DNA of 38,266 nt from contig JAJFJG010000018.1 in NCBI GenBank assembly GCA_021774265.1, positions 1-38,266 on the forward strand, in the 5' to 3' direction. Shown here piece by piece: positions 19,341 to 27,740 of the stretch. Within the stretch, counting starts at the first letter, position 1, and every line of letters starts with the position of its first letter. The position numbers were made by a program, and so were the translations under genes. The notes under the pieces were generated by a model. It worked only from the letters and a program-made list of their open reading frames with translations. It ran no database searches and had not been told where the DNA came from. Source of the stretch: Nitrosomonas sp. GTDB lineage: Bacteria; Pseudomonadota; Gammaproteobacteria; Burkholderiales; Nitrosomonadaceae.

Positions 19341-19510
19341 CTCCGGTTTAATACCGGATTAATCGATCATTCGGCCGATTGCTTTACTACACCATATCAA
19401 AATCAGCATTCGATGCCAATTGCGTCTGATTCATGATATATTCCTTCCAAACATCATCGGTAACGTTACCACTTGATGCTACCCAATATCAATTACGCAA
19501 ATTCTAGCAC
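19341..19510 (-). pseudogene. IS200/IS605-family TnpA (Y1 transposase) C-terminal scar
   Basis: Reading from about 19476 to the TAG at 19387-19389 gives YWVASSGNVTDDVWKEYI and then MNQTQLASNADFDMV. This is the C-terminal end of IS200-type HUH transposases (typically GYWVASSGNVTDEVWKKYI). An in-frame TGA precedes it where an Arg-Gly is expected, and no catalytic HUH or Tyr region remains. Downstream, TCCGG-TTTAATA-CCGGA (about 19343-19359) and a second imperfect palindrome around 19361-19380 fit the hairpin-bearing right end of these elements. Confidence 0.68.
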
Positions 19511-24517: not shown

Positions 24518-25633
24518 TCAAAATTTTTCAGAGTCACTAAATGCAAAGATGATAAATCGTAGCATACCAACGAAAGTCAGAGACCATATCAGCAGCACAA
24601 GCCAGCTCCAATATTGAGAAATAATCACCAAAGATTCGAAATCTGTAGCATTTGTCAGAAGCATTGTGCTGGCCATGTACATCCCCATAGGGAAAACTCT
24701 GCTCCATGAGGAAATTTCAAAAGCATAATGTTGCCTACCAAACGTCAACCTCAACCATGGAAAGATTTTTACCCATATTGGCATTGGATCTGCGGTGTCT
24801 AAGCGGATTAATTTGCGAGCATCCATGATCAAGAGATAAGGAATCCACAATGTGGCAGTGATCCATATAAAAACAGTCATGTACAAAACGATTTCCCGGA
24901 TATTTTTCCATGCTGGTAGTTCTGGCATTCGAGTAATGAACTCGGAGCCTGCCAACGCTAAAATCGCTGCTGCTCCCATGCAAATCCAGTAAGGCGCGCT
25001 CCAGTCTTTAGGCTCAAACCGTCCAAATAAAAGGCGATAAAGCAATGGTACTATAATAATTAGATACAGAACGAAGCCTAGAACCCAAAGTCCCACCATA
25101 ACAAAATAACTATAGTCGGGATGTTTATCCGTCGTATCCAGAATACGCATACCCAATATAGATATAGATATTATGCTGACAACAATTAGCAAAGTCGTGC
25201 CGTTTATGATTTCAAGTATGCTGAATTTCCCCTTCATGGCAATGAAATTGAGCAAGATGAAATAGATGCATATAAGCCAGCCAGTCATGGCCATAAGCCA
25301 CAACAAAATTGCCAACCCTGTTGCCTGGCAAAAAATCGTAAGCTGAGTTCCGATGGTATTGGTCCCAACTACGAATGTCAAAAAAAGAAATGCACGTTGA
25401 AGGATTTTGAAGTCTGCCACTAAATTCGGTAGGAAAAATACGACCCGTGCAACTAGAATGGAACATAAAGTCAGATATAACAAAAGATTAACTGCGAACA
25501 ATAGCCTTGCTACACCGGGAGAACCCAGTATTTCAAAAGCAATCGACACGATGCCAGTGGCCATTACCATGGCAAAATTTGCCGGATAAAAATCTCTTAT
25601 GCTGTTTTTAATAACGACATTGTATTGTTTCAT
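24518..25633 (-). CDS. TDT-family (TehA/SLAC1-fold) transporter
   Basis: A 371-residue integral membrane protein with about ten hydrophobic segments, beginning FYPANFAMVMATGIVSIAFE. This is the typical TM1 of the tellurite-resistance/dicarboxylate transporter family (TehA, Mae1, SLAC1 channel fold). Near the C-terminus WSRVFPMGMYMASTMLLT is the usual TM9 signature. Members conduct or export small anions (sulphite, nitrate, chloride, dicarboxylates) or affect tellurite resistance; the substrate cannot be read from sequence. ATG start with a weak ribosome site. It stands alone, with an IS3 scar downstream and a long gene-free region upstream. Confidence 0.82.
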   Translation of the reverse strand: MKQYNVVIKNSIRDFYPANFAMVMATGIVSIAFEILGSPGVARLLFAVNLLLYLTLCSILVARVVFFLPNLVADFKILQRAFLFLTFVVGTNTIGTQLTIFCQATGLAILLWLMAMTGWLICIYFILLNFIAMKGKFSILEIINGTTLLIVVSIISISILGMRILDTTDKHPDYSYFVMVGLWVLGFVLYLIIIVPLLYRLLFGRFEPKDWSAPYWICMGAAAILALAGSEFITRMPELPAWKNIREIVLYMTVFIWITATLWIPYLLIMDARKLIRLDTADPMPIWVKIFPWLRLTFGRQHYAFEISSWSRVFPMGMYMASTMLLTNATDFESLVIISQYWSWLVLLIWSLTFVGMLRFIIFAFSDSEKF

Positions 25634-26081
25634 ATAGGGCTAACGAAAGTAATAGAACAGGAAAGGGCTATGTTGAAACAAAAGCTTATATTGTCAATAA
25701 TAAAGCTTCATTGTATATATACTAGATAATTATTATCTGTAGACATATAGCACAAAACGAGACACGTTATTTTCCTTGTTGCATATATTCTATGGCTAAC
25801 AAATTATGTTTTTTAGCCTAGGAGCTATAATAATACCTTTATAATCCGTTCGATATAAAAACTGTCTTAGTCATATTAACATTGAGCTTAAGTTCAAGTT
25901 GCTGACGCTGAGACTCCATATTGGATAATGCACCTACCAACAACAAGGAAGGCTAGCCCCAATATTGCACCAGCATATTAAATTTCGATCTGTAGCCCAT
26001 ATGTTTATTGACTTTTGTAAGATTGACTGAAAATACAGCTTGTACTCAATACATAATTTTTTGGCTTTTAACGGAAGAAAT
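25634..26081. other. Gene-free AT-rich stretch upstream of the transporter
   Basis: About 450 bp with no supported coding frame on either strand. The part nearest 25634 should contain the transporter promoter. Short open frames here are broken and match no domain I know. Confidence 0.4.
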
Positions 26082-26101
26082 CTCGGGAGCTTGCTCCCGA
26101 G
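26082..26101 (+). repeat. Hairpin 1: 8 bp stem with CTTG tetraloop
   Basis: CTCGGGAG (26082-26089), loop CTTG, CTCCCGAG (26094-26101): a perfect GC-rich stem closed by G-C over CUUG, a very stable RNA tetraloop. Related in sequence and structure to hairpin 3 at 26164-26185. No T-run follows, so it is not a classical terminator. It lies between no supported genes. Confidence 0.7.
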
Positions 26102-26123
26102 TCAAATTAGATAAAAGTATAGT

Positions 26124-26206
26124 AAAAATTCCGTTTGACCGAAGGTCAATCAGACCGGCGTAAACTCGGTCGCTTGCGGCCGAGTAGTCGGGCTGAAGGA
26201 ATTTTT
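26124..26206 (+). ncRNA. Candidate structured RNA element (nested hairpins 2 and 3)
   Basis: AAAAATTCC (26124-26132) is exactly complementary to GGAATTTTT (26198-26206), closing an outer stem. Inside lie hairpin 2, TTGACC-GAA-GGTCAA (26135-26149); a weaker stem CCGGC/GTCGG (26155-26159 with 26187-26191, one G-U); and hairpin 3, ACTCGGTCG-CTTG-CGGCCGAGT (26164-26185, one G-U pair). The outer stem ends in a T-run on the plus strand. The element could be a small RNA, a REP/BIME-like repeat or an ssDNA hairpin of a mobile element. The structure is read directly from the sequence; a function is not known. Confidence 0.45.
26164..26185 (+). repeat. Hairpin 3: 9 bp stem with CTTG tetraloop, paralogue of hairpin 1
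   Basis: ACTCGGTCG, loop CTTG, CGGCCGAGT. Aligned with hairpin 1 over 21 bases, 17 are identical. The four differences fall at two paired positions (G-C becomes T-G wobble, A-T becomes C-G), so pairing is kept in both. Confidence 0.65.
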
Positions 26207-26827
26207 TAATTTTGACCTCTTCTGAATTTAATGCAAATACTTGCAACGCTGCAGAATAACTGCGATTTTGGTCGCGAGCACGTTCAATTCAAAACAGATC
26301 GGGTTTTAAATTCCAGAAACTGGTGAAATGTTGAGGCTAGTTGTATAAAGGCGCATTAATGATACTGTTTTAAATATTCGGCAGTTGATCATCCAGTTGC
26401 GGTGACAATAATTAATGGCGAAACGAAAATTAAAAGTCTTTGATGGCTTTTTCCATCTGTGTTGCGGGCTTAGGGTAATGACGTCAAGTCGCCAGAAAAT
26501 AACTCCAACAACATATTTACTAACTGTTTTGAATCTGTAGTTTGAGCGGTTTTTTTATATTCCGTTTGAATATCCTGATGCGTAAATATGTATTTTTGAT
26601 TAAATCGGCTCGAATGTATTCCAAACTATCCCTTTCTGGTGTTGATAGCTAAATTCACTCACTGAAATCAATGGCAACGGTGACACAGTGATTTTACAAT
26701 GCTGGGTAAATACAACCTTCAAAATGTTCTAAATTTCTTGCTTTATTGGATAGCTTGCTAAGTTCAATCAACTATTGAATTGAATATCATCGACATTTAG
26801 GAGTGCGTCGATTATAGTGTAATTAAT
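26207..26827. other. Mostly gene-free stretch upstream of the YfcH-type gene
   Basis: About 620 bp. Apart from one minus-strand frame without a start codon (listed separately at 26470-26625), I see no coding potential. The right end carries the ribosome site and presumably the promoter of the plus-strand epimerase gene. Confidence 0.4.
26470..26625 (-). pseudogene. Unidentified protein fragment without a start codon
   Basis: A 51-codon frame bounded upstream by a stop reads SSRFNQKYIFTHQDIQTEY, then KKTAQTTDSKQLVNMLL and ELFSGDLTSLP before a TAA. The composition is protein-like and helical, with no ATG near its start. I do not recognise the family; it may be a C-terminal piece of a lost gene or chance. 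Confidence 0.22.
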
Positions 26828-26834
26828 AAGGAGG
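26828..26834 (+). promoter_or_regulatory. Strong Shine-Dalgarno of the YfcH-type gene
   Basis: AAGGAGG lies 6 nt before the ATG at 26841, a full consensus match, and fixes this start. Confidence 0.75.
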
Positions 26835-26840
26835 CAGCCC

Positions 26841-27740
26841 ATGAGAGTTCTGATAACAGGTGGCACCGGATTTATTGGCCAGACATTATGTCCGGCGCTG
26901 CTTGCGGAGGGTCATACACTGACTATTTATAGCCGCTACCCTGATAAAGTCAAAGCCATTCTTGGCGATCAGGTTACACCACTCAATTCCTTGAAGACAC
27001 TGTCCGAGTCGGATCATTTTGATGTCATTATCAATCTTGCTGGCGCACCGATTTTTGGTCAACGGTGGTCAGATGAACGCAAACAAATCCTCCTACACAG
27101 CCGTATAGATATCACTCAGGATTTAGTGCAATTTATAATACGGGCACATACCAAACCTGAGGTTTTCCTAAGTGGCTCGGCAATAGGTTTTTATGGTAAT
27201 CAAGGCGACAAAATACTAGATGAAACATCATCTGGCCACGATGATTTTGGTCACCAGCTATGTGCGAAATGGGAGAATGAGGCAAAAAAAGCTAAAGAAT
27301 ATGGCGTTCGGGTATGTCTACTACGTACTGGCTTAGTTATTGGTAAAAATGGTGGTTTCTTAAAACCAATGATATTACCGTTCAAGTTGGGGTTGGGTGG
27401 ACGGCTGGGTAGTGGCAAACAATGGATGCCCTGGATACATATTGACGACCATGTCGCTATCTGCAAAAGATTGATTAATAATCATGATTTTGGAGGAGAG
27501 TTTAATTTAACCGCACCAAACCCAGTCACCAATAAAATATTTTCTCAAGCGTTGGCAAAGACCCTCCATCGCCCCGCTTTCCTGCCCGCCCCAACATGGA
27601 TACTTAAGTTCATACTGGGTGAAATGTCTGAATTATTGTTGGGCAGTCAACGCGTTATTCCTAAGCGAATGTTGGATGCTGGTTACCCATTCAAATTTAC
27701 TGAATTGGAAGCGGCATTAGGCCATGTTCTATGTGAATAA
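26841..27740 (+). CDS. TIGR01777-type (YfcH) NAD(P)-dependent epimerase family protein
   Basis: A 299-residue atypical SDR. N-terminal cofactor motif GGTGFIG (7-13). NLAGAPIFGQRWSDERKQIL follows, with GAPI and RW characteristic of the YfcH family, then SGSAIGFYGNQGD, and R-TGLVIGKNGG. In the middle, GGRLGSGKQWMPWIHIDD is the family hallmark. The C-terminal DUF1731 segment ends in the VIPKRMLDAGYPFKF motif. Usual family length is about 300. The physiological reaction is not established for the family; some members are linked to cell division. It is a monocistronic plus-strand gene among minus-strand neighbours. Confidence 0.9.
   Translation: MRVLITGGTGFIGQTLCPALLAEGHTLTIYSRYPDKVKAILGDQVTPLNSLKTLSESDHFDVIINLAGAPIFGQRWSDERKQILLHSRIDITQDLVQFIIRAHTKPEVFLSGSAIGFYGNQGDKILDETSSGHDDFGHQLCAKWENEAKKAKEYGVRVCLLRTGLVIGKNGGFLKPMILPFKLGLGGRLGSGKQWMPWIHIDDHVAICKRLINNHDFGGEFNLTAPNPVTNKIFSQALAKTLHRPAFLPAPTWILKFILGEMSELLLGSQRVIPKRMLDAGYPFKFTELEAALGHVLCE

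Follow-up and report, generated by a model that had tools for sequence, protein, structure and literature searches.

Results

A hairpin cluster inserted in a MITE-like repeat

We analysed a 38,266-nt stretch of DNA (hereafter, the window) from a Nitrosomonas genome assembly of 3.42 Mb in 220 contigs. In the window, a SLAC1-family channel gene (24518-25633, minus strand) and a NAD-dependent epimerase gene (26841-27740, plus strand) delimit an intergenic gap, 25634-26840, in which we found no ORF of at least 90 aa, in agreement with an initial sequence-only reading that had described 1.2 kb without a supported protein gene. A further copy of the epimerase gene, 84% identical and with one internal stop, lies elsewhere in this genome (G000:C2:16679-17569). 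The gap holds a MITE-like host repeat, termed repeat A (25953-26340), with terminal inverted repeats CTAGCCCCAATATTGCACCAG / CTGGTGAAATGTTGAGGCTAG, which is interrupted by a 139-bp element (26072-26210, plus strand) at distances of 425 and 612 nt from its neighbouring genes. A 12-copy alignment of the host repeat sets the limits of the element, ambiguous by one base, and a six-frame translation reveals no transposase ORF within it; the extent proposed initially, 26082-26206, was thus slightly short.

The element is largely made up of paired segments, all given here on the plus strand. The left-end hairpin H1, CTCGGGAG-CTTG-CTCCCGAG, occupies 26082-26101. Further along, an outer stem pairs its 5' arm AAAAATTCC (26124-26132) with its 3' arm GGAATTTTT (26198-26206), and encloses the internal hairpin H2, TTGACC-GAA-GGTCAA (26135-26149), as well as a middle stem, TCAGACCGGC / GTCGGGCTGA (26150-26196), which carries at its end the right-end hairpin H3, ACTCGGTCG-CTTG-CGGCCGAGT (26164-26185). 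The hairpins with their CTTG loops, the third hairpin and the 9-bp outer stem had all been placed exactly to the base by the sequence-only reading. H1 and H3 are identical at 17 of 21 aligned bases and their four differences amount to two exchanged base pairs (G-C to T-G and A-T to C-G), such that pairing is preserved in both hairpins, as first observed. The termini of the element, CGGAAGAAAT... and ...GGAATTTTTTAAT, do not form inverted terminal repeats. Its predicted RNA fold (26060-26230) is better than those of 200 out of 200 dinucleotide shuffles (z -4.4), and the same holds for the single-stranded DNA fold (26066-26216), with z -5.3 for the plus strand and z -4.5 for the minus strand.

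Target site and empty sites

Repeat A measures about 250 bp without its insert, has CTAG at both ends and is present in five of 85 genomes of the genus (G000, G075, G019, G004 and G076); its YTAR ends would fit a mover of IS5 type. To the left of the element lies TTTAA (26067-26071, plus strand), the target site, whose last four bases constitute the candidate left cleavage site C_L, TTAA (26068-26071). All 12 aligned copies of repeat A (11 of the 29 other places found, plus L003; L013 was left out) run through TTTAAC without the element and hence constitute paralogous empty sites. At L013 (G004), a copy of the related IS200 lies behind the left half of repeat A, at the same TTTTTAA place as the window element.

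The window copy appears, from its junctions, to have inserted without clear target duplication, with a small doubt caused by the TTTTAA that flanks it on both sides. An orthologous empty site was found for copy L202 of genome G094: in G062, the two flanks are 94% and 93% identical, about 132 bases are absent and replaced by one base, and there is no duplication. In both L202 and L203, TTTAA is not repeated on the right. For L203 no empty site could be identified, as no genome among the matches listed had both flanks adjacent, and the same applies to the window copy via the flanking epimerase gene in G075, where the upstream region is not alignable.

The element shares its ends with an IS200-type insertion sequence

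A scan with the TnpA of the related IS as query retained 79 of 114 loci, many of them in Gammaproteobacteria. Among the 49 loci whose match spans the query end to end or nearly so, the left-end hairpin pattern was detected in 34, the right-end pattern in 38 and both in 27. The left search pattern consists of TAA, a spacer and AAATCTCGG...; the 34 left ends that it caught display TTTAA in 32 cases and TTAA in all 34, the latter figure being partly built in because the pattern demands TAA and AAAT. The order and orientation of H1 and H3, together with the TTTAA target, are the same in an IS200-type element of Nitrosomonas and many Gammaproteobacteria.

The agreement extends to the bases themselves. 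In L024, L025, L037 and L038, the stretch AAACTCGGTCGCTTGCGGCCGAGT, which comprises H3 and the bases 5' of it, recurs directly behind the tnpA stop codon with 24 of 24 bases identical. The related IS usually has AAATCTCGGGGGCTTGCCCCCGAG as its left-end hairpin, and at L146 the 25 bases GAAATCTCGGGAGCTTGCTCCCGAG (left hairpin plus 5' bases) are identical to those of the window. When 42 Y1 loci, mostly IS200-type with a few RAYT-type, were compared by BLAST, one locus (L107) showed both end hairpins, with the H1-like one preceding and the H3-like one following tnpA (E 3e-4 and 3e-5), the other matches being single hairpins or weak. It was this locus that directed us to the IS group, and visual inspection of L117 revealed an identical arrangement. 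The two hairpins, initially described as paralogous, are more than a local duplication: H1 and H3 match the left- and right-end hairpins of one IS family.

The sequence-only reading had proposed to look for a RAYT or IS200-type transposase elsewhere in the genome, and 12 Y1 matches do exist there; all are partial or contain stops, and our search of the genome revealed no intact IS bearing these ends. Ten of the 12 loci were read and none carries H1 or H3, which led us to reject these genes as the source, and a BLAST comparison of four element copies with all 12 loci gave weak matches only (best E 0.045). One relic of the right end of this IS group is present in the genome (L007). A tblastn search with eight Y1 pieces from this genome found no autonomous copy beside the element copies (20 loci, about 1.5 kb on each side); when the window was included, the sole match was a Y1 (IS200/IS605) transposase remnant at 19426-19488 on the minus strand, 6.6 kb from the element.

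Guide tetranucleotides and predicted cleavage sites

Elements of the IS200/IS605 group are described as having end hairpins that are bound on single strands, with guide tetranucleotides 5' of each hairpin (PMC6006769, PMC5934647). According to the available text of PMC5934647, the IS608 cleavage sites pair with these 5' tetranucleotides (C_L TTAC with AAAG, C_R TCAA with GAAT), and the pairing order used here derives from these two cases plus two base pairs named in that source. In the window, the candidate left guide G_L, AAAT (26078-26081, plus strand), lies directly 5' of the foot of H1 and predicts TTAA, as found. The candidate right guide G_R, TAAA (26161-26164, plus strand), directly 5' of the foot of H3, predicts TAAT for the right cleavage site C_R, again as found: TAAT (26207-26210, plus strand) forms the last bases of the element, where the insertion ends against the host repeat. 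The window copy hence fits the guide rule on both sides, at the very limits of the insertion.

The other copies are less regular. The C_R position is occupied by TAAT in L204 and L206, TGAT in L202 and TCAT in L203. The predicted left site was found in five of ten copies and the predicted right site in three of 12, or three of the seven with guide TAAA (the match in L209 is too distant to count). For the IS group itself, 40 of 57 right ends obey the rule, one of the misses lying at a contig end. These ends divide into a first set (31/37, against 18.5 on average in shuffles, none of 10,000 shuffles being as high) and an added set of 28 loci (hairpin caught in 20, absent in 8) with 9/20, in which the Pseudoalteromonas copies fail the rule. 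With guide AAAA the rule holds in 31 of 35 cases, and with other guides in 9 of 22. Overall, the data on the commonest guide appear to support the rule, and support from the other guides is weak. Within the IS200-type group L123-L201, right guide and right cleavage site covary in part, with the pairs AAAA/TTAT, TAAA/TAAT (Shewanella, Arenicella, Pseudoalteromonas neustonica) and GAAG/TCAC (BP7.bin34); in P. denitrificans and some others, guide and site do not vary together.

A dispersed repeat of Nitrosomonas

The element occurs as scattered copies in genomes of the genus. In the genome of the window, BLAST (query 26060-26230) located seven places, five of them with H1, and a covariance model gave six matches, two of which fall on one palindromic locus. 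Within the genus, BLAST matches with E <= 0.01 occur in 23 of 85 genomes, many of them corresponding to the H3 hairpin alone. The homologues and genomic copies for which the sequence-only reading had proposed a covariance-model search do exist: our model R1, built from seven full copies, matched at least 30 places in at least 16 of the 85 genomes (E <= 0.01; one palindromic locus counted on both strands), these counts being lower bounds because only the best 39 first-look candidates per genome were scored, and the genome of the window itself contains about five copies. The other 69 genomes gave no match to R1 at this threshold among the candidates scored. Weak places in G059, G060, G063 and G064 share their flanks and look like one decayed ancestral copy. 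In an order-level sample of 300 genomes (eight from the genus; 11 candidates scored per genome), all six places of the genome of the window were recovered and at least three genomes matched, all of them Nitrosomonas, with no match in about 292 genomes outside the genus among the best 11 candidates of each. When the window was searched again with a model, no additional copy emerged, the only hits being three weak ones (E 0.04 to 0.5).

Copies come in several forms. Ten are full (the window copy, L202, L203, L204, L206, L207, L208, L209, L211 and L226), others are halves consisting of H1 and the linker (e.g. L003, L004, L019 and L035), and a third form retains the termini only, with H1 fused to the H3 side (L021/L212, L028, L225 and L227). 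We also observed that a long perfect palindrome replaces H2-H3 in L002/L218, that the right end of L218 (G000:C219, 1501-1624) looks as if copied inverted, and that L014 and L027 contain palindromes built from the left end.

The gene surroundings of 21 copies were inspected with simple stop-to-stop frames of at least 130 codons. In this raw count (L208 and L226 seem to represent a single insertion), 14 copies, the window copy not among them, have the stop-side end of a gene within 80 nt, and two have a start-side end. In L202, L203 and L222, the TAA of the target is the stop codon of the adjoining gene.

Covariation of the internal helices

The covariation that the sequence-only reading had proposed to look for in an alignment was observed among the ten full copies (alignment A3). 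Overall, 87.0% of cells are paired. Both partners have changed in 14 of 42 pairs, a count that averages 8.9 +/- 1.8 in shuffles (reached in 4 out of 500) and amounts to five or six in slid versions of the structure. These controls take no account of relatedness, and seven of the ten sequences had served to derive the structure. Both-sided changes occur in all five helices. They affect 4/9 pairs in H3, 3/6 in H2 (90% of cells paired), 4/10 in the middle stem (83.8%) and 2/9 in the outer stem (82.6%), six of whose nine pairs depart only by unpaired cells. H2 and the middle stem thus covary even though the related IS ends that were read do not possess them.

Discussion

The hairpin cluster is very probably a 139-bp non-autonomous IS200/IS605 element, i.e. 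a palindrome-associated transposable element (PATE). The observations behind this reading are the ends and target shared with the IS group, insertion without visible duplication, dispersal in the genus and covariation. Like the IS200-type, tnpA-only insertion sequences (NF033573; L107, L117, L124, L141 and others), the element combines a TTTAA target with CTTG-loop hairpins in the same order and orientation. It differs from them by the lack of tnpA, which excludes an IS200/IS605 insertion sequence proper, by the lack of the long hairpin behind the left end and by a longer tail after H3. This tail (25 nt, versus 9-10 nt in the IS) and the absence of H2 from the IS ends speak against the PATE reading, as do the guide rule, which only 40 of 57 right ends of the IS group obey, and the fact that our search of this genome revealed no intact cognate transposase gene.

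We infer that the mover would be the TnpA of this IS group, acting along a single-strand pathway and cutting at the positions given above. H1 would be the left-end and H3 the right-end hairpin, and they may share a loop and differ by exchanged base pairs because, as we propose, one small HUH/Y1 transposase TnpA reads both. Acting in trans, TnpA would bind the two hairpins in single-stranded DNA and cut on the left after TTTAA and on the right after TAAT, at sites determined by base pairing to the tetranucleotide that precedes each hairpin on its 5' side. The excised product would be a single-strand circle, reinserted 3' of another TTTAA without duplication of the target. At the present locus, the element would have entered an older MITE-like repeat between the SLAC1-family channel and epimerase genes.

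Other origins have to be weighed against this one. A conventional MITE, mobilised by a DDE transposase and recognisable by inverted repeats and a target duplication, could be invoked as the surrounding repeat A resembles that kind and the window copy has TTTTAA at either side, but the element has no terminal inverted repeats, the empty site orthologous to L202 shows no duplication and the ends match those of an HUH element, which leaves this explanation with hardly any probability. It is nearly as improbable that the element belongs to the REP/BIME or REPIN repeats, which a domesticated RAYT transposase (TnpA_REP) would have spread. Such repeats are likewise intergenic palindromes, whose presumed mover is a Y1 HUH protein akin to the IS200 TnpA (PMC8266576, PMC3733652, PMC6006769), and the element shares with them short palindromes that are mostly intergenic and present in several copies. 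Longer Y1 proteins, possible RAYTs, occur in genomes of the genus too, and the 14 of 21 copies within 80 nt of a stop-side gene end recall REP ends, which often provide the stop codon (PMC3733652). However, features described for REP/BIME/REPIN in the available text of these sources (PMC8266576, PMC3733652, PMC6006769), namely a GTAG tag, hairpin pairs in inverted order and a large number of copies, are absent from the Nitrosomonas element: AAAT precedes H1, TAAA precedes H3 and GTAG is found only 3' of H3, the two hairpins stand in direct order with both CTTG loops on one strand, and the genome holds about five places. Moreover, the hairpins match IS200 ends, and the TnpA concerned (L094, from the Nitrosomonas genome G094) scores 135.7 bits as an IS200/IS605 transposase (NCBIfam cut-off 55), as opposed to 20.8 bits as a RAYT (cut-off 80). 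We rejected the REP/BIME reading, one of three offered initially, on tag, hairpin order and copy number; by contrast, the proposal of a substrate for an HUH element held, as end hairpins, target and insertion pattern match an IS200/IS605 TnpA element.

The third of those readings, an undescribed small RNA, found no direct support, and a related explanation, in which selection acts on a structured RNA (small RNA or two-way terminator) that arose by exaptation and owes no more than its origin to the mobile ends, seems to us doubtful while being the most credible of the alternatives. In its favour are the both-sided pair changes in all five helices, including the two that IS ends lack, the T that follows the outer stem, the many copies just behind genes, three of them with the target TAA as stop codon, and a precedent in Borrelia (PMC2775950), where free-standing IS605 stem-loops are described, some of them conserved as RNA. 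On the other side, Rfam returned no match at the gathering score and three weak sub-threshold ones (tfoR, S15 leader and a ciliate snoRNA), and a simple terminator scan, blind to the outer stem because of its loop limit, found in the element H1 on the minus strand only. The comparison of G-U with A-C is indecisive, with 36 versus 22 cells (P 0.04, the cells not being independent) and 22 versus 17 pairs (P 0.26). The window copy, furthermore, is remote from the nearest genes, and the 69 genomes of the genus without a model match (best 39 candidates each) count against such a function. It is a little less credible still that a transposase-less IS200 element carries the internal module (outer stem, H2 and middle stem) as cargo, and that this module works as a conserved RNA or a two-way terminator. 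If true, it would constitute a mobile regulatory RNA able to land on stop codons, which is possible because the target TTTAA contains TAA.

Returning to the non-autonomous IS200/IS605 element, its kind is already known (PATEs; PMC3119063). As described in the available text of that source, the PATEs of Haloquadratum walsbyi are also too short for a transposase, lack inverted terminal repeats and target duplication, carry near-terminal palindromes resembling those of IS605-type elements and include terminal-only forms produced by deletion between the two palindromes. Unlike them, the Nitrosomonas element is bacterial, is related to a tnpA-only IS200-type element, numbers about five copies in its genome and has a conserved structured module between its end hairpins. 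The Borrelia stem-loops, as presented in PMC2775950, are likewise IS605-type hairpins without a transposase at gene ends (there, the 3' ends of lipoprotein genes), but they are single hairpins, some of them beside one gene family, whereas in Nitrosomonas a whole two-hairpin element occupies unrelated places. Among the papers listed, which we screened by title and abstract opening, none described such an element in Nitrosomonas, and an earlier description may exist. New here are the element family, seen only in Nitrosomonas, and the unexplained structured module between its end hairpins.

What had been a hairpin cluster without explanation can now be described as a mobile element whose transposase group, target and ends are named. 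It extends the transposase-less derivatives of IS200/IS605 by a bacterial example, seen so far only in Nitrosomonas. Its nested insertion and the orthologous empty site provide well-defined junctions at which single-strand transposition can be examined, and the covariation within the internal module raises the question of whether such elements carry an RNA function.
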